From NCBI GenBank assembly GCA_001544655.2, contig FCOD02000011.1:124001-188000 (forward strand): a stretch of DNA of 64,000 nucleotides, in the 5' to 3' direction. The DNA comes from Caballeronia turbans (GTDB taxonomy: Bacteria; Pseudomonadota; Gammaproteobacteria; Burkholderiales; Burkholderiaceae). The notes beneath the pieces were generated by a model. It did no database searches. It was not told where the DNA came from and saw only the letters and a program-made list of their open reading frames with translations. A program made the translations under genes and the position numbers. This document shows, in pieces, positions 18,069-29,714 of the stretch (positions within the stretch are counted from its first letter, which is position 1; each line of letters begins with the position of its first letter).

Positions 18069-20786
18069 TCAAGCCGCGAGCGCCTTCTCGACCACCTCGC
18101 GCACGTCGCGCGATTTCGCCTTCGACGCGACTTCGCTCAACGCCGCGTGCATCTTCTCGCGCAACTGCGGCGTAAAGCGTCGCCACAGTTCGAGTCCGCG
18201 TGCGAGACGAGCCGCGACCTGCGGATTGAGCGCGTCGAGCGCGATCACCTGCTCTGCCCAGAACGCGTAGCCGGAACCGTCGGCGGCGTGGAACTGCGCC
18301 GGGTTGCCGCTGCAGAAGCTGAAAATCAGCGAGCGTGCGCGATTCGGGTTCTTGATGTTGAACGCCTGATGCTGCATCAGCTTGCGCACGATCTCGATCA
18401 CCTTGCGATCCGGGCCGCCGCGCTGCGTCGCCTGAAGCGCGAACCACTTGTCGATGACGAGCGCCTCGTTCTCGAAACGTCGATAGAAGTCCGCAAGCGC
18501 CGCGTCCGCGACGCTCGGGTCCGCGCCCTTCGTCGCGCTGGCGAGCAGCAGCGCGGAGAGCGCCGCCGAGCGGTCCGTCATGTTGTTGGCGGCATCGTAT
18601 TGCGCCTGCGCGAGCTTGACGGCTTCGCGCGGATCGTCGAGCTGGCTCAGATAGGCGAGCGAGAGATTCTTCAGCCCGCGCTTGCCGGCATCCTCGGGCA
18701 GCGGGCGATATTCGCCCGGTGTGCGATTCGCTTCATACGTCGCGAGCCACTTGTCGCGCAATTGCGACGCGAGACGGCGGCTCATGAAGACGCGCGCCGC
18801 GTGCACGGCGGCCGGATCCGACACGGCCATCTGCTCGGCGAGATAGCTTTCCGACGGCAACATCAACGCGAGTTCGCGGAAGGCGGGCGTGAGCGTGGTG
18901 TCCTCGAGGACGCGGGCGAATGCCGCGATCACCTGATCGTCGATGGCAAGCTGCTCGCCCTTGGCCGCGCGCCCGGCAAGCGCGAGCAGCTCGCGCGTGG
19001 CGAGACGCTGGCCGGCTTCCCAGCGGTTGAACGGATCGCTGTCGTGCGCGAGCAGGAACGCGAGCTCGTCGTTCGTATAGTCGTATTCGACGATCACCGG
19101 CGCCGAGAAATTGCGCAGAAGCGACGGCAGCGGCTTCTCGTTCACGTCGACGAAAGTAAAGGTCTGCTCGCGCTCCGTGAATTCGAGCACGCGCGTCGTG
19201 CCGTTCGGCTCTTTCTCGCCTTCGAGACGCAGCGGCAAATCCGCGCCGTTCTGCCCGATCAGACCGACCGAGAACGGAATGAGCAGCGGACCTTTCTGCG
19301 TGGCGCGCGCCGCTTCGGATGCGTCGCCGTAACCTTGCGTGAGCGTCAGCGTGTAGCGCTTGTTCGCCGCGTCGTGGTTCGCGCGGACCGACACGCGGGG
19401 CGTGCCCGCCTGGCTGTACCAGCGCTCGAACTGCGCAAGATCGCGATGGTTCGCGTCGGCGAGCGCCTGACGGAAGTCGTCGCAGGTCACGGCCTGGCCG
19501 TCGAACCGCTGGAAATAAAGATCCATGCCGCGCCGGAAACCGTCGCGGCCGAAGAGCGTCTGGTACATCCGCACGACTTCCGAGCCTTTCTCGTAGACGG
19601 TCATCGTGTAGAAGTTGTTGATTTCGACGTAGCTTTCCGGGCGCACCGGATGCGCCATCGGGCCGGCGTCCTCGGCGAACTGCATCTGACGCAGCACGCG
19701 CACGTCCTCGATCCGCTTGGTCGCACGCGCCGCGGCGCTCGCCGCGCCTTCGGCATCGCCTGCGGCCATGTCGGCCGAGAATTCCTGATCGCGGAACACC
19801 GTGAGGCCTTCCTTCAGGCTGAGCTGGAACCAGTCGCGACAGGTCACGCGATTGCCCGTCCAGTTATGGAAGTACTCGTGACCGACCACCGCCTCGATAT
19901 TCGAGAAGTCCGTGTCCGTCGCGGTTTCGGGATTCGCGAGCACATACTTCGTATTGAAGATGTTGAGACCCTTGTTCTCCATCGCGCCCATGTTGAAGTC
20001 GCTCACCGCGACGATCATGAAGCGGTCCAGATCCAGCTCCAGCCCGAAGCGCTTTTCGTCCCAGCGGATCGAGTTGATGAGCGAGTCCATCGCGTGGCGG
20101 GTTTTGTCGAGGTCTTGCGGCTCGACCCAGACCTGCAGCAGCTTTTCCTTTCCCGATCCGGACCGGATGCGCTCCTCGATGCACACGAGCTTGCCCGCGA
20201 CGAGCGCGAACAGGTAGCTCGGCTTCTTGAACGGGTCTTCCCATTTGGCAAAGTGGCGGCCATCGGGCAGATCGCCTTCCTCGATCAGATTGCCGTTCGA
20301 CAGCAGCACCGGATAAGCAGTCTTGTCGGCGCGCAGCGTGACGACGTAGGTGGCCATCACGTCGGGGCGATCGAGGAAGTAGGTGATGCGGCGAAAGCCT
20401 TCTGCTTCGCACTGCGTGAAGAAGTTGCCGCTGGAAACATAAAGCCCGGAGAGCGTCGTGTTCTCCGCCGGATTGCAAATGCTCTCGATGCTGAGCTCGA
20501 ACGCATCCGCTGGAATATTGCCGATGGACAGTCCGTTTTCGTGGACACGGACATCCGCGTTCGCGACGCCGTCGATCGCCGCGCTCACGAATTCGAGCTG
20601 TTCGCCCATCAATTCGAGCCGCGACGCGTCGCCATGGGCGTCGGGGTTGCGGCGCAGTTTCATCGTATTCTTGACGACCGTGCGTGCCGGCACGAGATCG
20701 AACTCGAGCGCGACGGAGTCGATCAGGAAGGCGGGCGGCGTGTAGTCCTGGCGGCGAATCACAGCGGATGCGGTCGTGGTAGACAT
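18069..20786 (-). CDS. pepN: Aminopeptidase N, M1 family (905 aa)
   Basis: PepN is a cytoplasmic zinc aminopeptidase that removes N-terminal residues from peptides late in protein turnover. The exopeptidase motif GAMEN is at residues 267-271, the zinc site HEYFH at 303-307 and the third ligand Glu326 follows at the usual spacing. Domain order and length match E. coli PepN. No signal peptide is present. A new transcript probably starts in 20787-21007, divergent from the lipoprotein gene. Confidence 0.97.
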   Translation of the reverse strand: MSTTTASAVIRRQDYTPPAFLIDSVALEFDLVPARTVVKNTMKLRRNPDAHGDASRLELMGEQLEFVSAAIDGVANADVRVHENGLSIGNIPADAFELSIESICNPAENTTLSGLYVSSGNFFTQCEAEGFRRITYFLDRPDVMATYVVTLRADKTAYPVLLSNGNLIEEGDLPDGRHFAKWEDPFKKPSYLFALVAGKLVCIEERIRSGSGKEKLLQVWVEPQDLDKTRHAMDSLINSIRWDEKRFGLELDLDRFMIVAVSDFNMGAMENKGLNIFNTKYVLANPETATDTDFSNIEAVVGHEYFHNWTGNRVTCRDWFQLSLKEGLTVFRDQEFSADMAAGDAEGAASAAARATKRIEDVRVLRQMQFAEDAGPMAHPVRPESYVEINNFYTMTVYEKGSEVVRMYQTLFGRDGFRRGMDLYFQRFDGQAVTCDDFRQALADANHRDLAQFERWYSQAGTPRVSVRANHDAANKRYTLTLTQGYGDASEAARATQKGPLLIPFSVGLIGQNGADLPLRLEGEKEPNGTTRVLEFTEREQTFTFVDVNEKPLPSLLRNFSAPVIVEYDYTNDELAFLLAHDSDPFNRWEAGQRLATRELLALAGRAAKGEQLAIDDQVIAAFARVLEDTTLTPAFRELALMLPSESYLAEQMAVSDPAAVHAARVFMSRRLASQLRDKWLATYEANRTPGEYRPLPEDAGKRGLKNLSLAYLSQLDDPREAVKLAQAQYDAANNMTDRSAALSALLLASATKGADPSVADAALADFYRRFENEALVIDKWFALQATQRGGPDRKVIEIVRKLMQHQAFNIKNPNRARSLIFSFCSGNPAQFHAADGSGYAFWAEQVIALDALNPQVAARLARGLELWRRFTPQLREKMHAALSEVASKAKSRDVREVVEKALAA

Positions 20787-21007
20787 GGCAAGATCTTCAT
20801 GTTTGGATTGAACGGCGGGGGCGTCGGGCGTGTGTGCTTTCGAGCACCAACGCGTGCGCGCCTGGTCGAATCATTGTACAAGCCGTCCGGAGATCGCGAA
20901 TCGGGCGGCGCAGCGCGTCGTGGACCCCACAAAACAGGACGCCGCCGTGCAAGCCGCGGCGGTGCTATCTATAACTGGGAAGGGTGCCGAACGAAGTGAG
21001 GATGACC

Positions 21008-21724
21008 ATGAATGTTCCGATCAGGACGCTCGCCAGATGGGCGGCGCTGATATTGATGGCGATGTGGCTCACGGGCTGCACGACCTACGTCCAGACGCAG
21101 GTCACCGCATTCTCCGACTGGAGCGGCAGCGACTCGGCGCGCACGTATGCGTTCGCGCGCAAGGGCGAGCAGCAAAACAGCATCGAGCAGACGACCTACG
21201 AGACGCTCGTCGCGAGCGAGCTCTCGAAATACAACTTCCGGCAAGTGCCGGAGGCGAGCGCGAACTATCAGGTCGCGCTCGCCTATTCGGTTCGCGGCGA
21301 CATGATGACCGTGCGCCAGCCGGTCTACTACGATCCGTGGCCGATGTACGGCCCCTGGGGCGGTCCGTTCGGGGGCGGACCGTGGGGTCCGTGGGGGCCG
21401 TACGGACCATGGGGCCCGGCGGGTTACGTCGACCAGAGCTATCCGATCTACATCCACGCGCTGCAAATCCGCATGAACGATCGCAAGACCGGTCGCGAGA
21501 CCTACAAGGTGACGGCGGTCAACTCGACCGGCGACCCTTCGCTCTATCAGGCGATGCCCTACCTCGTGCGCAGCGCGCTCGCGAATTTCCCGCTCGGCAA
21601 CGGCACGGTTCGCACGGTGACGCTGCCGGTCGACCAGCATGGCGGCATCTCCAACGAAACGGCGGCAGCCGGCTCGAACGAACGCAGCGCGGCGCCCGCG
21701 CCCGCAACCAAGGCCGTCGATTGA
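21008..21724 (+). CDS. DUF4136 lipoprotein with a Gly-Pro-Trp-rich segment (238 aa)
   Basis: The signal sequence ends in LTGC, with the lipidated Cys at residue 24, so the protein is membrane-anchored, probably in the outer membrane. A DUF4136 domain follows, interrupted by a low-complexity segment of repeated GPWG units (about residues 113-140). The C terminus is Ala/Pro-rich. GAGG six bases before ATG 21008 favours that start over ATGs at 20984 and 21002. Function is unknown. It precedes the phosphonate operon by about 200 bases, but nothing ties it to that pathway. Confidence 0.8.
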   Translation: MNVPIRTLARWAALILMAMWLTGCTTYVQTQVTAFSDWSGSDSARTYAFARKGEQQNSIEQTTYETLVASELSKYNFRQVPEASANYQVALAYSVRGDMMTVRQPVYYDPWPMYGPWGGPFGGGPWGPWGPYGPWGPAGYVDQSYPIYIHALQIRMNDRKTGRETYKVTAVNSTGDPSLYQAMPYLVRSALANFPLGNGTVRTVTLPVDQHGGISNETAAAGSNERSAAPAPATKAVD

Positions 21725-21932
21725 TCGAGAGGCGAATGCGACGGCCACGCGCCGTCGCAACGTCGAAGATCGCATCGGAAAATATTGCCGCGACGTGTGG
21801 CGACTAGGTGCTGCTCACGATGTCAGCGAAAGTTTCAGAATCGCCCGTCAGCCTTGACCAAACAGGGAATCATCGCCTCGATGCTGGGCCGCAATATATG
21901 CAGCTTCGGCGAATTAGCGATATATTTCCGGG

Positions 21933-22631
21933 ATGACAAAATCGTGTCCGCCCGATCCTAAAACCGTTCCCGAGCCCACCACATGGGACGCGCGGCTCGC
22001 ACGCCGCCTCGTCACGCCGCTCGTCGGCACGCCGGTAACGCCCAATCACCTGACCACGCTGCGCCTCGTTATCGGTCTGGCCGGGGCGTACTATTTGTCG
22101 CTCGGCCAGTTCTGGATGTGCACGCTAGGCGCGCTCCTGATCGCACTGTCGAATCTCGTCGATCACACCGACGGCGAACTCGCGCGCATCAGCGGACAGT
22201 CCAGCAAGATCGGCCACTTCTATGACCTCGCGTGCGACGCGCTCGTGACCGTGTTGCTGTTTCTCGGCATCGGGTTTTATGTCGCCGTGCACCATCCGTC
22301 GATGATCGTGCCCGCGCAATGGCTCGGCGGCATTGCGGGCGTGGCGGTCGCGCTGATCTTTTTTCTGCGCATGCGTGTCGAGTCGATGGTCGGCAAGTCC
22401 GGCACGAAGCAGGCGTCGATGGGCGGATTCGAAACGGAAGACGTGTTGTATCTGCTGCCGGTCGTGACCATCCTGAATGGCATGACGCCGTTTCTGGTCG
22501 CGTCGGCGATCGGCGCGCCGCTCTTCGCCATTTATGTGGCGGTGGACTATCAGCGCGTGACCGCGCAGTTGAAACGCCGTGCGCAGGCCACCCACGCAAA
22601 AGACGACAAAGATTTTCAGGCGGTGAGATGA
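21933..22631 (+). CDS. CDP-alcohol phosphatidyltransferase family membrane protein (232 aa)
   Basis: These integral membrane enzymes exchange CMP of a CDP-linked substrate for an alcohol. The complete signature D-x2-D-G-x2-A-R-x8-G-x3-D-x3-D is present (Asp77, Asp80, Gly81, Ala84, Arg85, Gly94, Asp98, Asp102), with about six hydrophobic segments. Family knowledge predicts catalysis at the inner membrane. Being first in a phosphonate operon, it most likely transfers aminoethylphosphonate from CMP-aminoethylphosphonate to diacylglycerol, by analogy with ethanolamine phosphotransferases; this is inference. The ribosome site is weak. Its stop overlaps the next start as ATGA. Confidence 0.85.
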   Translation: MTKSCPPDPKTVPEPTTWDARLARRLVTPLVGTPVTPNHLTTLRLVIGLAGAYYLSLGQFWMCTLGALLIALSNLVDHTDGELARISGQSSKIGHFYDLACDALVTVLLFLGIGFYVAVHHPSMIVPAQWLGGIAGVAVALIFFLRMRVESMVGKSGTKQASMGGFETEDVLYLLPVVTILNGMTPFLVASAIGAPLFAIYVAVDYQRVTAQLKRRAQATHAKDDKDFQAVR

Positions 22632-23440
22632 GCGATACGGCAACTCCGGACAGCACGCTGACGCAACCGGCGCATGGGGCTGCGGCGACCCGCCCGTCGA
22701 AGCGCGACATCGATTCGACCATGAACGCGCGGCTCGCCGCGCTGCAAACGCCGAAGCTGCGCGACGAATACGGCCAGCAAGGCTCGTTTCTCTACATCGA
22801 AGATTTTTTGCCGCGCGACTACACGGAGCGGCTGATTGCCGCCGTGCATGACGTGATGCCGTCCGTGAACCGCAACTATCTGCCGGGTCACAAGGCGGGC
22901 GGAAGCGTGAGCCGCCATACGCTCGACAAGCTCGCGCCGTTCATCGCGGATTTGTATCGTTCGGAAGCGCTCATCAAGTGGCTGGAGACGATCACCGGCG
23001 ACAAGCTGCAACTTTCGCCGGAAGACGATCCGCACGCCTACGCGCTGTACTTCTACACACGTCCGGGCGACCACATCGGCTGGCATTACGACACGTCGTA
23101 TTACGACGGCCGGCGCTACACGCTCCTGCTCGGCGTGATCGACGATTCGTCCTGCAAGCTCGACTACGAACTGCACACGAAGACGCCCGGGGTTCCGGAT
23201 CAGCCGGGCTCGGTGCAGTATCCGCCCGGCGCGTTCGTGTTCTTCGATGGCGACAAGCTGCGCCATCGCGTCACGCCGCTCGGCGAGAACGAGATGCGCG
23301 TGTCGCTCACGTTCGAGTACGTGACGAATCCGACCATGCGCCCGTTCCAGCGCTTCATCTCGAACATGAAGGACTCGATCGCGTATTTCGGGTTCAGGCA
23401 GGTCTTTCGCCGCAAGGGCGGCACGAACGGACAGGCATGA
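22628..23440 (+). CDS. 2-oxoglutarate/Fe(II)-dependent oxygenase (270 aa)
   Basis: The double-stranded beta-helix core has the iron triad His153-x-Asp155 and His213, and Arg224 is placed to hold the 2-oxoglutarate carboxylate. An aspartate in the triad predicts hydroxylation or another oxygenation rather than halogenation, since related halogenases replace it with Gly or Ala. An N-terminal extension of 30 residues is low complexity. The start ATG overlaps the transferase stop and the stop overlaps the next gene, both as ATGA. A role in hydroxylating the aminoethylphosphonate head group or the lipid is inferred from context. Confidence 0.85.
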   Translation: MSDTATPDSTLTQPAHGAAATRPSKRDIDSTMNARLAALQTPKLRDEYGQQGSFLYIEDFLPRDYTERLIAAVHDVMPSVNRNYLPGHKAGGSVSRHTLDKLAPFIADLYRSEALIKWLETITGDKLQLSPEDDPHAYALYFYTRPGDHIGWHYDTSYYDGRRYTLLLGVIDDSSCKLDYELHTKTPGVPDQPGSVQYPPGAFVFFDGDKLRHRVTPLGENEMRVSLTFEYVTNPTMRPFQRFISNMKDSIAYFGFRQVFRRKGGTNGQA

Positions 23441-24453
23441 GCCGCGCCGGCACATTCCTGCTGTCGGTCGGCGTGGTGCTGTTCATCGCGCTGCTCGGCT
23501 GGCAAGGCTTCGGCTCCGTTGCATCGACGCTTGCCGCGGCGGGCTGGGGGCTGGTCGCGGTCGCGGCCTTTCACTTCGTGCCGCTCGTCATCGATGCCGT
23601 CGCGATCAGCGTGCTCTTCGCCGACCGTCAGCGCGACGTGTCACTGCTCGACGCCTTGCTCGCGCGCTGGGCCGGCGAATCGGTAAACAGCCTGATGCCC
23701 GCAGGCCAGATCGGCGGGCCGATGCTGATGGTCCGCTATCTCGCGCAGCGCGGCATGCGCGCGCGAGACGCGGCCGCGGTCATCACCGTCAGCACGACGA
23801 TGCAGACCGTCGCGCAACTGATCTTCGCGCTGATCGGCGTCGTCCTGCTGACGGGTTATGCGGCGGGCGGCTCGTCGTCGACCGTGACGATCGCGGTGGT
23901 GTCGGTGATCGGCGTGATCGGCCTCATGATCTTCGGTTTCTATCTCGCGCAGCGGCGCGGTCTCTTCGGCCGCGCGATGCGCTTCGCGTCGGGCATCGCC
24001 GCGAAATTCTCGGCCAAACGCGACTGGTCGTCGCTCGTGACGCGCGCCGAAGCCGTCGATGCCGCCGTGCACGAGATGTATCGCGAGCGCGGCAAGGTGG
24101 CGTCGAGCTTCGGGTTGAGTTTCATCGGCTGGATCGTCGGCACGGGCGAAGTGTGGCTCGCGCTGCATCTGCTCGGCCATCCGGTCGGCTGGACGGAAGC
24201 CCTGCTGCTGGAAAGTCTCGGCCAGGCGATCCGCGGCGCGGCCTTCGCGATTCCCGGCTCGCTCGGCGTGCAGGAAGGCGGCTATCTGCTGCTCGCGCGT
24301 CTGGTCGGCCTGCCGCCCGAGGCGGCGCTCGCGCTGTCGCTCGCCAAGCGCGCGCGCGAACTGCTGCTCGGCGTGCCGGGCATCGTCTATCTGCATTTCG
24401 TTGAAAAAGGCTGGCAGCGCCGCCGTCTCGCGCGCGTGCCGGATATCGACTGA
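23437..24453 (+). CDS. Flippase-like membrane protein (LPG synthase TM / UPF0104 family, 338 aa)
   Basis: This is a polytopic inner-membrane protein with about eight hydrophobic segments. It shows hallmarks of the lysylphosphatidylglycerol synthase transmembrane family: SVNSLMPAGQIGGP (residues ~80-95) and a C-terminal PGSLGVQEGGYLLLARLVGLP. It lacks the soluble aminoacyl transferase domain, as do HpnL-type proteins thought to move or present lipids. Starting at ATG 23437, it overlaps the oxygenase stop. In this operon it may translocate the phosphonolipid; that is inference from position and family. Confidence 0.8.
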   Translation: MSRAGTFLLSVGVVLFIALLGWQGFGSVASTLAAAGWGLVAVAAFHFVPLVIDAVAISVLFADRQRDVSLLDALLARWAGESVNSLMPAGQIGGPMLMVRYLAQRGMRARDAAAVITVSTTMQTVAQLIFALIGVVLLTGYAAGGSSSTVTIAVVSVIGVIGLMIFGFYLAQRRGLFGRAMRFASGIAAKFSAKRDWSSLVTRAEAVDAAVHEMYRERGKVASSFGLSFIGWIVGTGEVWLALHLLGHPVGWTEALLLESLGQAIRGAAFAIPGSLGVQEGGYLLLARLVGLPPEAALALSLAKRARELLLGVPGIVYLHFVEKGWQRRRLARVPDID

Positions 24454-24476
24454 CCCACCCACGAAGGGAACCAAGC

Positions 24477-25253
24477 ATGCGCGCAATTATTCTTGCGGCC
24501 GGGATGGGCTTGCGCCTCGTTCAGCCCGAAGGCCAGCAAAAGCCAAAATGTCTGCTCCGTTTTGGCGATGCATCGCTGCTCGAACGTCATCTGCACTTTT
24601 TGAAAGCCGCCGGCGTCGATGAAGTCGTCTTCGTGACCGGCTTCAAGAGCGAGCAGATCGAAGCGGAGCTCGCATCCATCGACTGGAAGCCGAAGACCGA
24701 GATCGTCGTCAACGAGGAATTCACGCTCGGCAGCGTGCTATCCGTGCATACCGCGCGCGACGCGATGACGCGCGGCGGCGATGTCCTGCTGATGGACGCC
24801 GACGTGCTCTACGACGAACGCATCTTCGATCCGCTCGTCGCGGGCGGCGCGGTGAATCGCCTGCTGATCGATCGCGACTTCGAAGCCGGCGACGAACCGG
24901 TGAAGCTGTGCGTCGAGAATGGCGTGCCGGTCGAACTGCGCAAGCAGGTCGCGGCGGGTCTGAAGTACGACACCATCGGCGAATCGGTGGGCTTCTTCCG
25001 CTTCGACGAGAAAGCGGCCACGCGCCTCGCCGAAATCTGCGCCGATTATGTGGCGACGGGCCGTGCGAAGATGCCGCACGAAGAAGCGGTGCGCGACCTG
25101 TTGCTGGAAAAGTCCCACGTGTTCGATATCGCCGACGTGACCGGCGCACCGTGGATCGAAATCGATTTTCAGAACGACGTGAAGCGCGCGGCCGATGAAG
25201 TGCTGCCGCAGTTGAACGCGCTGCGTCAGTTTGCAGGAGCCTCTCAACAATGA
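24477..25253 (+). CDS. LicC-like nucleotidyltransferase, probable CTP:aminoethylphosphonate cytidylyltransferase (258 aa)
   Basis: The signature LAAGMGLRL at the N terminus, with its catalytic Arg, and the following KPKCLL lysine are intact. LMDADVLY supplies the metal-binding Asp, and the C-terminal [14 protein letters not shown] resembles the metal and sugar-site motif of LicC-type choline-phosphate cytidylyltransferases. In this setting the likely substrate is 2-aminoethylphosphonate, giving CMP-aminoethylphosphonate for the membrane transferase. A GAAGGGA ribosome site precedes ATG 24477. The stop overlaps the mutase start by four bases. Confidence 0.8.
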
Positions 25254-26947
25254 ACGCACCCGGAAACATTCCCGTCGGCTATTCGCGCACCATGCGCCTG
25301 CGCGAGATGCTGCAAAGCAATCGCCTCGAATTTTTGATGGAGGCGCACAACGGCATTTCGGCGCGCATCGCGAAGGAAGCCGGCTTCAAGGCGATCTGGG
25401 GCTCGGGCCTGTCGATCTCCGCGCAGTTCGGCGTGCGCGACAACAACGAAGCGAGCTGGACGCAGGTCGTCGACAACCTCGAATTCATGGCCGACGCCAG
25501 CGATCTGCCGATCCTGCTCGACGGGGACACCGGCTACGGCAACTTCAACAACGTGCGCCGTCTCGTGAGGAAGCTGGAGCAGCGCGGCATCGCGGGCGTG
25601 TGCATCGAGGACAAGCAGTTTCCGAAGACCAACAGCTTCATCAACGGCGAAGCGCAGCCGCTCGCCGACATCGACGAGTTCTGCGGCAAGATCAAGGCCG
25701 GCAAGGATTCGCAGAGCGATCCGAACTTTTCGATCGTCGCGCGCGTGGAAGCGCTGATCGCCGGCTGGGGGATGGAAGAAGCGCTCAAGCGCGCCGAGGC
25801 GTATCGCCTGGCGGGCGCGGACGCGATCCTGATCCACAGCAAGCTGTCGAAGCCCGACGAGATTCTGACCTTCGCGCGCGAGTGGGCGGGCCGCGGTCCG
25901 CTCGTCATCGTGCCGACGAAGTACTACAGCACGCCGACCGACGCGTTCCGTCAGGCCGGTATCAGCTGCGTGATCTGGGCGAACCATCTGATCCGCGGCG
26001 CCGTATCCGCGATGCAGGCGATCGCGAAGGAAATCCACGACAGCGAGACGCTCGTGAACGTGGAAGACCGCATCGCGTCGGTGAACGAGATCTTCCGTCT
26101 GCAGGACGCCGACGAGTATTCGGCTGCCGAAAACATCTACCTGAGCGCGGCCAACGAAAAGCGCAGCGCGATCGTGCTCGCGGCGAGCCGGGGCGCGGGC
26201 CTCGAGGCGCTGACCGAAGCGCGTCCGAAGGTGATGCTGCCAGTCGCCGGCAAGCCGCTTCTGCGGCATCTCGTCGAGGCGTTCAAGAAGGAAAGCATCA
26301 ACGACATCACCGTGGTCGGCGGTTATCGGGCCGATGCGATCGAGAAGGGCGGCATCCGTCTCGTCGTCAACGAGCGCCATGACACCACGGGCGAGCTCGC
26401 ATCGCTCGCGTGCGCCGTCGGGCACATGAACGGCGACACCGTGATCTCCTACGGCGACCTGCTGTTTCGCAGCTACATCCTGCGCGACCTGACCGAATCG
26501 GACAGCGATTTCTGCGTGGTCGTCGATTCGTCGCAGGCGCCGGAGGCGGGCGCCGCCGCGACCGATTTTGCGTACTGCTCGACCGCCGACGACCGCGCGC
26601 TGTTCGGCCAGAAAGTGTGGCTCGACGGCGTGGTCGGCGCGGGGCAGGCGCTCACGGACGGCCGCGCGCCGCAAGGCCGCTGGATGGGCCTCATCAAGGT
26701 GCGCGCCGGCGCGCGCGAACGCCTGCTCGCGACGCTCGGCACGCTGCAACAGCGCCCGGATTTCGACAAACTCGACATGGCCGCGCTGCTCAACGCGCTG
26801 ATCGCCGCGGGGCAGAAGATCGAAGTGCAATACGTGCACGGCCACTGGCGCGGCGTCAACGACCTCGACGATTTCCGTCGCGCGGGCGATTTCGCCCACG
26901 GGCAGAGCCCCATCGGCTCGGAAGGAACGGAGAACGCCCGTGATTGA
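25250..26947 (+). CDS. Phosphoenolpyruvate mutase fused to a nucleotidyltransferase domain (565 aa)
   Basis: Residues 10-300 form an isocitrate-lyase-superfamily barrel that rearranges phosphoenolpyruvate to phosphonopyruvate, the entry step to C-P compounds. The catalytic [10 protein letters not shown] (120-129) and metal-site [10 protein letters not shown] (89-98) are the mutase-specific forms. Residues 308-560 form a nucleotidyltransferase, but its signature reads LAASRGAGL, with Ser for Gly and Gly for the catalytic Arg, so activity is uncertain; [13 protein letters not shown] and SYGDLL are kept. Fusions of this layout are known in phosphonate clusters. The start overlaps the previous stop (ATGA) and the end overlaps the next GTG by eight bases. 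Confidence 0.93.
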
Positions 26948-28097
26948 GGCCGCCCAGTTCGTCGAGGCCGCGCGCGAGCGCGGTTTCGACTGGTACGCGG
27001 GCGTGCCTTGCTCGTTTCTCACGCCCTTCATCAATTACGTGTTGCAGGACGAATCGCTGCACTATGTGTCGGCGGCGAACGAGGGCGATGCGGTCGCGCT
27101 GATCGCGGGGGTCGAACTGGGCGCAAGTCGCAAGCGCAGAGGCATCGCGATGATGCAGAACTCCGGCCTCGGCAATGCGGTGAGCCCGCTGACGTCGCTG
27201 ACATGGACGTTCCGTCTGCCGCAATTGCTGATCGTCACATGGCGCGGCCAGCCGGGCGTTCATGACGAGCCGCAGCACGCGCTGATGGGCCCGATCACCC
27301 CGCAGATGCTCGAGACGATGGAGATTCCGTGGGAGCTGTTCCCGACGGAAGCCGACCAGATCGGCCCGGCGCTCGATCGCGCGACGCAGTACATGGACAG
27401 CACCGGCCGCCCGTATGCGCTCGTCATGCAGAAGGGCAGCGTCGCGCCTTTCGAATTGAAGAACACGGGTTTGTCGGGCGTGCGCGTCAACGCGCATCCC
27501 GCAACGGTGGAGCGCTTCGAAGGCGAGCGCGTGACGCGCCACGAGGCATTGCGCCAGGTCATCGCCAACACGCCCAAGGATTCGACGGTCGTGCTCGCAT
27601 CGACCGGCTTCTGCGGCCGCGAGCTCTACGCGATCGACGACCGCGAGAACCAGCTCTATCTCGTCGGCTCGATGGGCTGTGTCACGCCGATGGCGCTCGG
27701 CCTTGCGCTCTCGCGTCCCGACCTGCGCGTCGTCGCGCTCGACGGCGACGGCGCGGCGCTCATGCGCATGGGCGTCTTCGCGACGCTCGGCGCGTACGGT
27801 CCGTCGAATCTGGTTCACCTGCTGCTCGATAATGGCGCGCACGAATCGACGGGCGGCCAGGCGACGGTTTCGCGCGCAGTCGATTTTGCATCGATCGCGT
27901 CGGCGTGCGGCTACGCGCTCGCGCTCGACGGTGACGATATCGGCGTGATCGATCGTCTTTTCGATGCGAAAGATGTGAACGGCGCGCGTTTCGCGCGTCT
28001 GTCGATCAGGACGGGCACGCCGGGCGATTTGCCGCGCCCGAAGATCACGCCCGAGGACGTGCGTGCGCGCTTGCAACAACACATTGGAGGCCGTTGA
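26940..28097 (+). CDS. Phosphonopyruvate decarboxylase (385 aa)
   Basis: This thiamine diphosphate enzyme decarboxylates phosphonopyruvate to phosphonoacetaldehyde, pulling the unfavourable mutase reaction forward. The N-terminal half has the [17 protein letters not shown] segment with the catalytic Glu, and the C-terminal half has [12 protein letters not shown] and [13 protein letters not shown], the TPP- and Mg-binding motif. The length suits the single-chain family. A GTG start at 26940 is chosen since it gives the conserved N terminus and overlaps the mutase gene. The stop overlaps the aminotransferase start by one base. Confidence 0.92.
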
Positions 28098-29161
28098 TGC
28101 TGCTGCTCAATCCCGGTCCTGTCACGCTGAGCGAACGCGTGCGCAAGAGCCTGCTGCAAACCGACTTGTGCCATCGCGAGCCGGAGTTTTTCGACTTGCA
28201 GGATGAGGCGCGCAAGCGTCTCGTCGCCGCTTACGAACTCGATCCGTCCGTCTGGAGCGCCGTGCTGATGACGGGTTCGGGCACCGCCGCGGTCGAAAGC
28301 ATGATCGCCGGTCTCGTGCCGGAAGGCGGGCGCTTGCTCGTCGTCGAAAACGGCGTGTATGGCGATCGCATCGCGCAGATCGCAAAGCAATACGGCATCG
28401 AGTACGAGGTCGCCAAATACGAGTGGATGCAGGCGCCGGATATCGACGCGATCATCGCGCTGCTCGACAGCAAGCCGTTCACGAACGTCGCGATCATCCA
28501 TCACGAAACGACCACCGGCCGCCTGAACGCGATCGATCAGTTGTCCCGCGCGTGCAAGGAGCGCGGCCTCGGCCTGCTGCTCGACGCGGTGAGCAGCTTC
28601 GGCGCCGAAGCGATCGACTTCGACGGCGGCGGCATCGCCGCGATCGCCGCGACCGCGAACAAGTGCCTGCACGGCGTGCCGGGCGCGGCGTTCGTCATCG
28701 CGCGCCGCGATGCGCTGGCGAAGTCGGCGAGCCGCAACTACTACCTCGGCATCGCGCGTCTCGCAAAGTTGCAGGACGAGCGCAATACGCCGTTCACGCC
28801 GTCGGTGCATGCGTATTACGCGCTCGTCGAAGCGTTGCGCGAGTTCGAAGAGGAAGGCGGCTGGCGCGCGCGTCACGCGCGGTATGCAAAGCTCGCGGAG
28901 CAGGTCCGCTCGGGACTGGCTGCGCTCGGCATCGACAGCGCGTTGTCGCCCGAGGAGTCGTCGGTCGTGCTGCGGGCGTACCGGCTGCCTGCGGGCGTCA
29001 CGTACGACAAGCTGCACGATGCGCTCAAGGCGAAAGGCTTCGTGATCTATGCGGGGCAGGGCGGGTTGTCGAAGGAACTGTTCCGCATTTCGACGATGGG
29101 CGCGGTCGATGCCAACGACATGGACCGGCTGATCTCGTCGTTCGTCGAGTTGCTGCGCTGA
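28097..29161 (+). CDS. 2-aminoethylphosphonate aminotransferase, PhnW-like (354 aa)
   Basis: This PLP class V aminotransferase interconverts phosphonoacetaldehyde and 2-aminoethylphosphonate; its operon partners imply the biosynthetic direction. The PLP lysine is Lys189 in TANKCLHGVPG, Asp163 holds the pyridine nitrogen, and LNPGPVTL begins the protein as in PhnW. GGAGG (28086-28090) lies six bases before ATG 28097, and this start is preferred over the TTG three bases earlier. It is the last gene of the operon. No phosphonatase (phnX) or other degradation gene is nearby. Confidence 0.92.
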   Translation: MLLLNPGPVTLSERVRKSLLQTDLCHREPEFFDLQDEARKRLVAAYELDPSVWSAVLMTGSGTAAVESMIAGLVPEGGRLLVVENGVYGDRIAQIAKQYGIEYEVAKYEWMQAPDIDAIIALLDSKPFTNVAIIHHETTTGRLNAIDQLSRACKERGLGLLLDAVSSFGAEAIDFDGGGIAAIAATANKCLHGVPGAAFVIARRDALAKSASRNYYLGIARLAKLQDERNTPFTPSVHAYYALVEALREFEEEGGWRARHARYAKLAEQVRSGLAALGIDSALSPEESSVVLRAYRLPAGVTYDKLHDALKAKGFVIYAGQGGLSKELFRISTMGAVDANDMDRLISSFVELLR

Positions 29162-29173
29162 GTCGCGAGCCGC

Positions 29174-29611
29174 TCACTGCTTGCAAAAAATCGCCGTAAT
29201 GAAGGGCGCGACGTGGTGCACATCCGCGTCGCTGCCCGCGGCGCGCACCTGCTGTTCGACCTCTTTATCGCCGCCCCACACGACCGCGCCGTAAGCGGAA
29301 TCGGCGATCGGCTCGCCCTTGCCGGGCCTGAAGATCGGGTCGTCCTTCTGGTAGGCGACGACCACATAGACCTTGAAGCCATAAGCCGTCAGCGTCGCGC
29401 CTTTCACGGGCTTGAACGCGTTGACGGAGTTCGGCTCCACGCGCATCGGCCTGGTTTCCAGCAGTCCGTCTCGCTGCAACGGCGCGACGAAATCATGCGC
29501 GGTCGATTTGCAGTCGAGTTGCGCATCGATCGGCTTCGCATGCGCGAGCGCACCGAGCGACGCGAGCGTCACGGTCAGCGCGATTCGGGAGGTTCGGGCG
29601 ACGTGCTTCAT
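29174..29611 (-). CDS. Exported protein of unknown function (145 aa)
   Basis: A typical signal peptide ends at Ala-His-Ala near residue 25. The mature domain of about 120 residues has two cysteines (in LDCKS and the C-terminal FCKQ) that could pair, so it is probably periplasmic. I recognise no family. It converges on the phosphonate operon with only 12 bases between stops and is separated from guaD by a terminator, so it is likely monocistronic. Confidence 0.7.
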   Translation of the reverse strand: MKHVARTSRIALTVTLASLGALAHAKPIDAQLDCKSTAHDFVAPLQRDGLLETRPMRVEPNSVNAFKPVKGATLTAYGFKVYVVVAYQKDDPIFRPGKGEPIADSAYGAVVWGGDKEVEQQVRAAGSDADVHHVAPFITAIFCKQ

Positions 29612-29714
29612 GTTGACACGATGTTCAGGACAGCTTGCACTTTAACGAGATTGCAATAAATCTGCACGAAACATCGAGCGAATCGTCGTGGCGCGTGGTC
29701 GATCCAACGAAAAA

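Follow-up and report, generated by a model that had tools for sequence, protein, structure and literature searches.

A conserved seven-gene operon of Caballeronia turbans that probably builds a hydroxylated phosphonolipid

What do the seven genes at positions 21,933 to 29,161 of this Caballeronia turbans DNA make together? The stretch analysed, called the window here, comprises 64,000 nucleotides of contig FCOD02000011.1, and an original prediction made from its letters had described the genes as a complete phosphonolipid pathway. The answer favoured here is that the operon builds a phosphonolipid, that the head group is probably 1-hydroxy-2-aminoethylphosphonate, and that the nucleotidyltransferase domain fused to the phosphoenolpyruvate (PEP) mutase probably does not act as the cytidylyltransferase; as a whole this reading is considered likely, with real room left for the rivals weighed below. 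The coordinates in the list of open reading frames (ORFs) and the family scores (Table 1) confirm seven genes on one strand with five of six junctions overlapping. In gene order, the overlaps are 4, 4, none (a gap of 23 nucleotides), 4, 8 and 4 nucleotides, the last becoming 1 nucleotide if AEPT starts one codon later, at an ATG. The labels CAPT, OXY, HPNL, NTP, PPM, PPD and AEPT are gene names of this analysis. Pfam gathering scores served as cut-offs for CAPT, OXY and NTP, and curated cut-offs for the PEP mutase, Ppd, AEPT and HpnL.

Table 1. Genes of the operon, the fused domain and the adjoining small-protein gene, in window coordinates
Feature	Position	Strand	Assignment	Evidence or remark
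CAPT	21933..22631	+	CDP-alcohol phosphatidyltransferase, proposed head-group transferase	CDP-OH_P_transf PF01066 47.9 bits (cut-off 22)
OXY	22628..23440	+	Fe(II)/2-oxoglutarate oxygenase, HalD/BesD family, proposed C1-hydroxylase of 2-aminoethylphosphonate (AEP)	HalD PF23169 39.9 bits (cut-off 26)
HPNL	23437..24453	+	HpnL-family membrane protein, proposed lipid flippase	HpnL TIGR03476 347.6 bits (cut-off 195.65); LPG_synthase_TM 114.4 (33.4)
NTP	24477..25253	+	Stand-alone LicC/PntC-like nucleotidyltransferase	NTP_transf_3 49.3 bits (cut-off 27)
PPM	25250..26947	+	PEP mutase (residues ~17-288) fused to NTP_transf_3 domain (from ~305)	TIGR02320 401.5 bits (cut-off 319.55); NTP_transf_3 52.3 (27)
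Fused domain of PPM	26162..26947	+	Nucleotidyltransferase domain with altered nucleotide loop AASRGAGLE	GxGxR arginine absent
PPD	26940..28097	+	Phosphonopyruvate decarboxylase (Ppd)	TIGR03297 447.8 bits (cut-off 312.5)
AEPT	28094..29161	+	2-Aminoethylphosphonate aminotransferase	PhnW-AepZ TIGR03301 392.7 bits (cut-off 360.8)
Small protein	29174..29611	-	145 residues, signal-peptide-like start by eye; candidate eighth member	Two invariant Cys; no Pfam match to the window copy

The PEP mutase, Ppd and AEPT would convert PEP to AEP. All three models score over their curated cut-offs, in support of the AEP synthesis proposed earlier, and the PEP mutase motif EDKxxxxxNS is kept in all 53 relatives retained after filtering; it is near certain, as judged from these family assignments, that AEP is made from PEP by this trio.

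Whether the other four genes belong to the same pathway was addressed in 249 Burkholderiaceae genomes, at thresholds of E 1e-20 for OXY and E 1e-70 for the PEP mutase (PepM). OXY was found in 145 genomes, a few broken copies included, and PepM in 143, with 142 over the cut-off; 140 genomes contain both, five OXY only, three PepM only and 101 neither (raw counts that ignore shared ancestry). This co-occurrence supports the view of the operon as one pathway unit. One PepM-only genome (G045) has lost OXY by deletion, and the other two (G065 and G227) hold divergent PepMs with the other genes not nearby; two of the OXY-only genomes (G009 and G187) hold deletion remnants. The idea that all seven genes are conserved together held for 10 of the 11 OXY-positive genera, in each of which a locus with the seven genes contiguous was read, and failed for Paraburkholderia (g20), where the genes form two operons, CAPT-OXY-HPNL-NTP and PPM-PPD-AEPT. 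Both sets are present in 22 of 26 OXY-positive Paraburkholderia genomes, and in all 22 they are separated by 97 kb or more or fall on different contigs. That both sets are retained although unlinked is the best evidence that they function together.

Among 80 named loci, the seven genes are complete and in order in 26, with some genes matched in pieces in three of these; 44 of the remaining 54 show only the first four genes and 10 the first six. The ratio of nonsynonymous to synonymous substitution rates is 0.10-0.21 across the seven genes in one pairwise comparison with a relative from the genus, and the closest OXY sequences, 96% identical, come from C. zhejiangensis and C. megalochromosomata. 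Conservation rules out a chance run of genes, and on the sequence evidence the pathway is real, conserved and coherent. Within the genus, 53 of 58 genomes have a PepM over the cut-off, namely all 49 genomes of at least 5 Mb (the copy of G015 has an internal stop) and four of nine smaller ones. Six Caballeronia genomes of 2.8-5.1 Mb (G003, G009, G015, G026, G045 and G051; loci L086, L087, L089, L104, L105 and L106) have one or more operon genes fragmented or absent, and two of these genomes, Candidatus Burkholderia pumila (G026) and Candidatus B. humilis (G015), we take to be leaf-nodule symbionts; a 3.6-Mb Mycetohabitans genome (L073) keeps all seven genes. Plasmid records with OXY number 14 (Mycetohabitans 9, Burkholderia 4, Cupriavidus 1). 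Among 398 phylum-wide genomes, OXY was found at E 1e-15 in five, all Burkholderiaceae, plus a copy split over two frames in G301 (L231), and PepM at E 1e-75 in 21, with 19 over the cut-off. A further, divergent PepM is encoded at another site in some family genomes (L102, L103, G134, G202, G203 and G268), probably as part of other phosphonate clusters.

The operon encodes two nucleotidyltransferases that could activate AEP, the stand-alone NTP and the domain fused to the PEP mutase. NTP has as its best solved-structure match PntC of T. denticola (6pd1), over residues 2-246 of 258. Replacement of Arg15, Lys25 or Lys153 by Ala leaves PntC with less than 10% of its activity (Rice et al. 2019, PMC6697681); the three residues align to R13, K24 and K156 of NTP, none of which varies among 15 sequences sampled across the family. 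NTP conforms to the GxG(T/S)R...PK pattern, except that the T/S position is Leu and the PK spacer is 9 against the published 4-8. In the fused domain, the GxGxR arginine is replaced in all 53 family sequences (Gly in 51, Asn in two; a few genomes are counted twice) and is absent too from all 10 fused PEP mutases outside the family (nine genomes; L226-L234, L237), while the remaining six of 16 outside stretches lack a fused domain. The profile alignment, which is weak in that region, sets Gly, not Lys, opposite K156 of NTP. With the key arginine missing and Gly opposite K156, the fused domain is therefore probably not the AEP cytidylyltransferase here, and the stand-alone NTP is the probable cytidylyltransferase for AEP or hydroxy-AEP. 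The activating step with cytidine triphosphate that was part of the original prediction can thus probably be kept for NTP, but probably not for the domain fused to the PEP mutase. NTP_transf_3 domains are fused to about a third of PepMs (PMC6697681). A wider proposal can be offered only tentatively: PEP-mutase-fused NTP_transf_3 domains may as a class not be cytidylyltransferases, their loop having been rebuilt (AASRG for AAGxGxR) for another role, and a separate enzyme may do the activating for a module made up of a hydroxylase, a head-group transferase and an HpnL flippase, which some Paraburkholderia may retain without phosphonate production and supply with scavenged AEP.

OXY belongs to a sequence family that includes the radical halogenases BesD and HalD. 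BesD is said to have lost an iron-ligand carboxylate (PMC10187165), whereas the HxD iron motif of OXY (HYD) is found in 48 of 48 relatives. Hydroxylation rather than halogenation is therefore expected, and halogenation was rejected on the strength of the iron-ligand Asp kept in all 48. The site of hydroxylation is suggested by gene order in two other Burkholderiales families (L232 and L234), where a PhyH dioxygenase sits between CAPT and NTP in the place of OXY; L233, from the genus of L232, carries the same PhyH gene in pieces. The order in L234 is CAPT, PhyH, NTP, PPM (in two frames), PPD, AEPT and an HPNL homologue. The PhyH proteins of L234 and L232 match the methylphosphonate hydroxylase PhnY at 1e-56 and 7e-59, respectively, by far their best NCBIfam match, and no significant BLAST similarity was found between these PhnY-like enzymes and OXY. 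The presence of two different enzyme families in one slot suggests that both hydroxylate the carbon adjoining phosphorus, and OXY probably hydroxylates AEP at this position. The hydroxylation step of the earlier proposal, taken as acting on the phosphonate, gains strength from the PhnY-like enzyme in the OXY slot.

From these assignments a sequence of later steps can be proposed. NTP would probably couple AEP, or hydroxylated AEP, to cytidine monophosphate (CMP). CAPT, whose motif D..DG..AR(8)G...D...D is present in 53 of 54 relatives (the sole miss is L059), would take the head group off CMP and attach it to a lipid alcohol, for which diacylglycerol is the simplest candidate. OXY would hydroxylate the carbon adjoining phosphorus on free AEP, on CMP-AEP or on the lipid, and HPNL would carry the lipid across or within the inner membrane. 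HPNL is the single HpnL found in the source genome, and HPNL homologues detected by BLAST adjoin the outside-family clusters L231 (30%) and L234 (47%). The function of HpnL is described as not established (PMC12583986). HpnL was found in 174 of the 249 family genomes, often in several copies and also without OXY, which rules it out as a marker unique to the operon.

The same head group might be placed on another acceptor, namely ceramide, a hopanoid, a polyprenyl carrier or lipid A, an unlikely but serious departure that concerns the acceptor only. It is favoured by the assignment of HPNL to HpnL, the gene for which usually lies within hopanoid clusters in Alphaproteobacteria (PMC12583986), by a squalene-hopene cyclase gene on another contig of the source genome, and by the hydroxy-AEP lipid of Bdellovibrio stolpii, which is a sphingolipid according to a title cited in PMC8154272. 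However, none of the seven is a gene for sphingolipids or hopanoids, and the further HpnL copies of many related genomes mean that the protein does not tie the operon to hopanoids; no match to HPNL at E 1e-3 was found in the 19-kb stretch around the squalene-hopene cyclase. It is very improbable that the product is no lipid at all but a phosphonoglycan or a small secreted phosphonate. AEP does decorate glycans in other bacteria (PMC6697681), but the operon has a CDP-alcohol transferase and a lipid-flippase-type protein, and inspection by eye of the ORFs listed for 17-35 kb brought up no recognisable glycosyltransferase or LicD-like gene.

Two further alternatives concern individual enzymes. 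NTP and CAPT could be an IPCT/DIPPS-like pair for another phospho-alcohol, with the fused domain making CMP-AEP for another use: both proteins match the model of a bifunctional inositol-phosphate enzyme (NF041135) and the structure 4mnd, and in Paraburkholderia they are encoded apart from PPM with its fused domain. This is nevertheless held to be improbable, given that the best solved match of NTP is an AEP cytidylyltransferase with the three tested residues kept, that the key arginine is gone from the fused domain and that OXY and PepM co-occur almost perfectly. OXY itself might act away from the carbon adjoining phosphorus, for example on an acyl chain or on the amine-bearing carbon. The evidence for OXY itself comes from remote family relationships, and those of its relatives that have names are halogenases, the lysine chlorinase BesD among them; against this, a PhnY-like phosphonate hydroxylase occupies the same slot in two lineages, and action elsewhere is considered rather unlikely.

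Several observations weigh against a phosphonolipid with a hydroxy-AEP head group as set out above. The lipid product is predicted from genes, and the nearest solved structures of CAPT are of the inositol-phosphate type, with choline/ethanolaminephosphotransferases matching more weakly. At position 107, NTP has Asp like LicC, where PntC has Glu, so phosphocholine may be an NTP substrate. Four of the ten clusters with a fused PPM outside the family (L226, L227, L228 and L230) showed no homologue of the stand-alone NTP within the stretch read; in these the fused domain could be active, which would also count against any general rule. The PhnY matches of the two PhyH proteins, 200 and 192 bits, fall far under the equivalog cut-off of 500. 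Of 35 named Caballeronia-type loci, nine (L139, L140, L141, L142, L144, L147, L148, L149 and L155) have an operon that lacks AEPT and in which the small-protein gene directly follows Ppd; these loci may use another transaminase or build a different head group. Finally, three Paraburkholderia genomes, G118 (P. monticola JC2948), G251 and G270, have the four module genes near full length (L096, L097 and L098), with no PepM at E 1e-70 and no Ppd over the cut-off. A module intact without PepM and Ppd in three of the 145 OXY genomes means that another substrate or scavenged AEP is possible.

The gene directly downstream, on the opposite strand, encodes a small protein that is a candidate eighth member. 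A homologue was found in 89 of 111 loci (these are not independent, some genomes being counted twice), and in 88 it lies no more than 1.5 kb from the cluster, on the downstream side in 39 and on the upstream side in 49. The gene is at the 3' end of the cluster in Caballeronia and at the 5' end in Paraburkholderia and others; because it adjoins the cluster at either end in different genera, the small protein is suggested to be an uncharacterised partner. Two Cys residues are invariant in nine of nine sequences, and the window copy has no Pfam match and no solved relative. No homologue was found in the other 22 loci, in a search confined to the loci and with some stretches shortened; these include both loci read for each of g11 (Burkholderia-type), g10 and g3 (Cupriavidus-type), as well as the Mycetohabitans locus L073, one Caballeronia locus (L121) and one Paraburkholderia locus (L081).

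The operon is flanked by what we take from the sequence to be genes for aminopeptidase N, guanine deaminase and purine metabolism. The earlier statement that no degradation gene is nearby holds for the ORFs listed for 17-35 kb, among which none was recognised by eye; the C-P lyase gene phnJ lies on another contig of the same genome (L241, contig 39). Given this gene, the genome may both make and degrade phosphonates, which fits the description of some Burkholderiaceae as holding both production and consumption genes (PMC8931226). Control through a Pho box was rejected, as no such site was found near the operon and the two in the window match the 2.26 given by chance. No sigma-70-like promoter was found in 20,700-29,700 (chance mean 1.1), and the nine terminator-like sites counted, against a chance mean of 6.3, are uninformative.

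If the proposed pathway is correct, an uncharacterised phosphonate membrane lipid would be widespread in Burkholderia, Paraburkholderia, Caballeronia and their relatives. The operon would then link hydroxy-AEP lipids to a hydroxylase, suggest concretely which substrate an HpnL protein may act on and allow the role of the domain fused to the PEP mutase to be tested directly. Head groups with a carbon-phosphorus bond resist phosphatases and so might help the bacteria to survive in soil or within hosts.

No experiment on the operon was recognised in a limited search of the literature, and passages from PMC11278827, PMC5748707, PMC10574752 and PMC4642753 add nothing on it. The original prediction had regarded a beta-proteobacterial phosphonolipid with a dedicated oxygenase and flippase as, to its knowledge, not well described; the broad idea is already in print as a postulate. 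Hydroxy-AEP lipids are reported from B. stolpii and postulated for other bacteria too (PMC8154272), and a hydroxylated phosphonolipid head group in Burkholderia is credited to Yu et al. 2013 (PMC12723261). As described by the citing papers (PMC12723261, PMC8154272), that postulate likewise places a hydroxylated phosphonate on a lipid from genomes; PMC12723261 names hydroxyphosphonoacetate and TauD/TfdA-type oxygenases, unlike the assignments made here. Flavophos is a different Burkholderia phosphonate (PMC12871164).

Among known systems, the operon resembles the Pnt (phosphonyl tailoring) pathway of PMC6697681 in its PepM with a fused NTP_transf_3 domain, Ppd, AEPT and LicC-like cytidylyltransferase. 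The Pnt clusters described there have LicD-like or glycosyltransferase genes, whereas this operon has a CDP-alcohol transferase, a hydroxylase and an HpnL protein instead; the terms Burkholderia, CDP-alcohol and phosphatidyltransferase do not occur in the main text of that paper. The B. stolpii sphingolipid (Watanabe 2001, cited in PMC8154272) bears the same head group as proposed here, 1-hydroxy-2-aminoethylphosphonate, possibly on a different backbone. PhnY and PhnY* share the proposed C1-hydroxylation of an alkylphosphonate but belong to the PhyH family, and the PhnY-like proteins in the OXY slot show no significant BLAST similarity to OXY; BesD and HalD share the sequence family of OXY and differ from it by the iron-ligand Asp that OXY keeps. 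To the broad idea of the earlier postulate, this analysis adds the assignment of enzymes, the evidence from the split operon and the altered fused domain.

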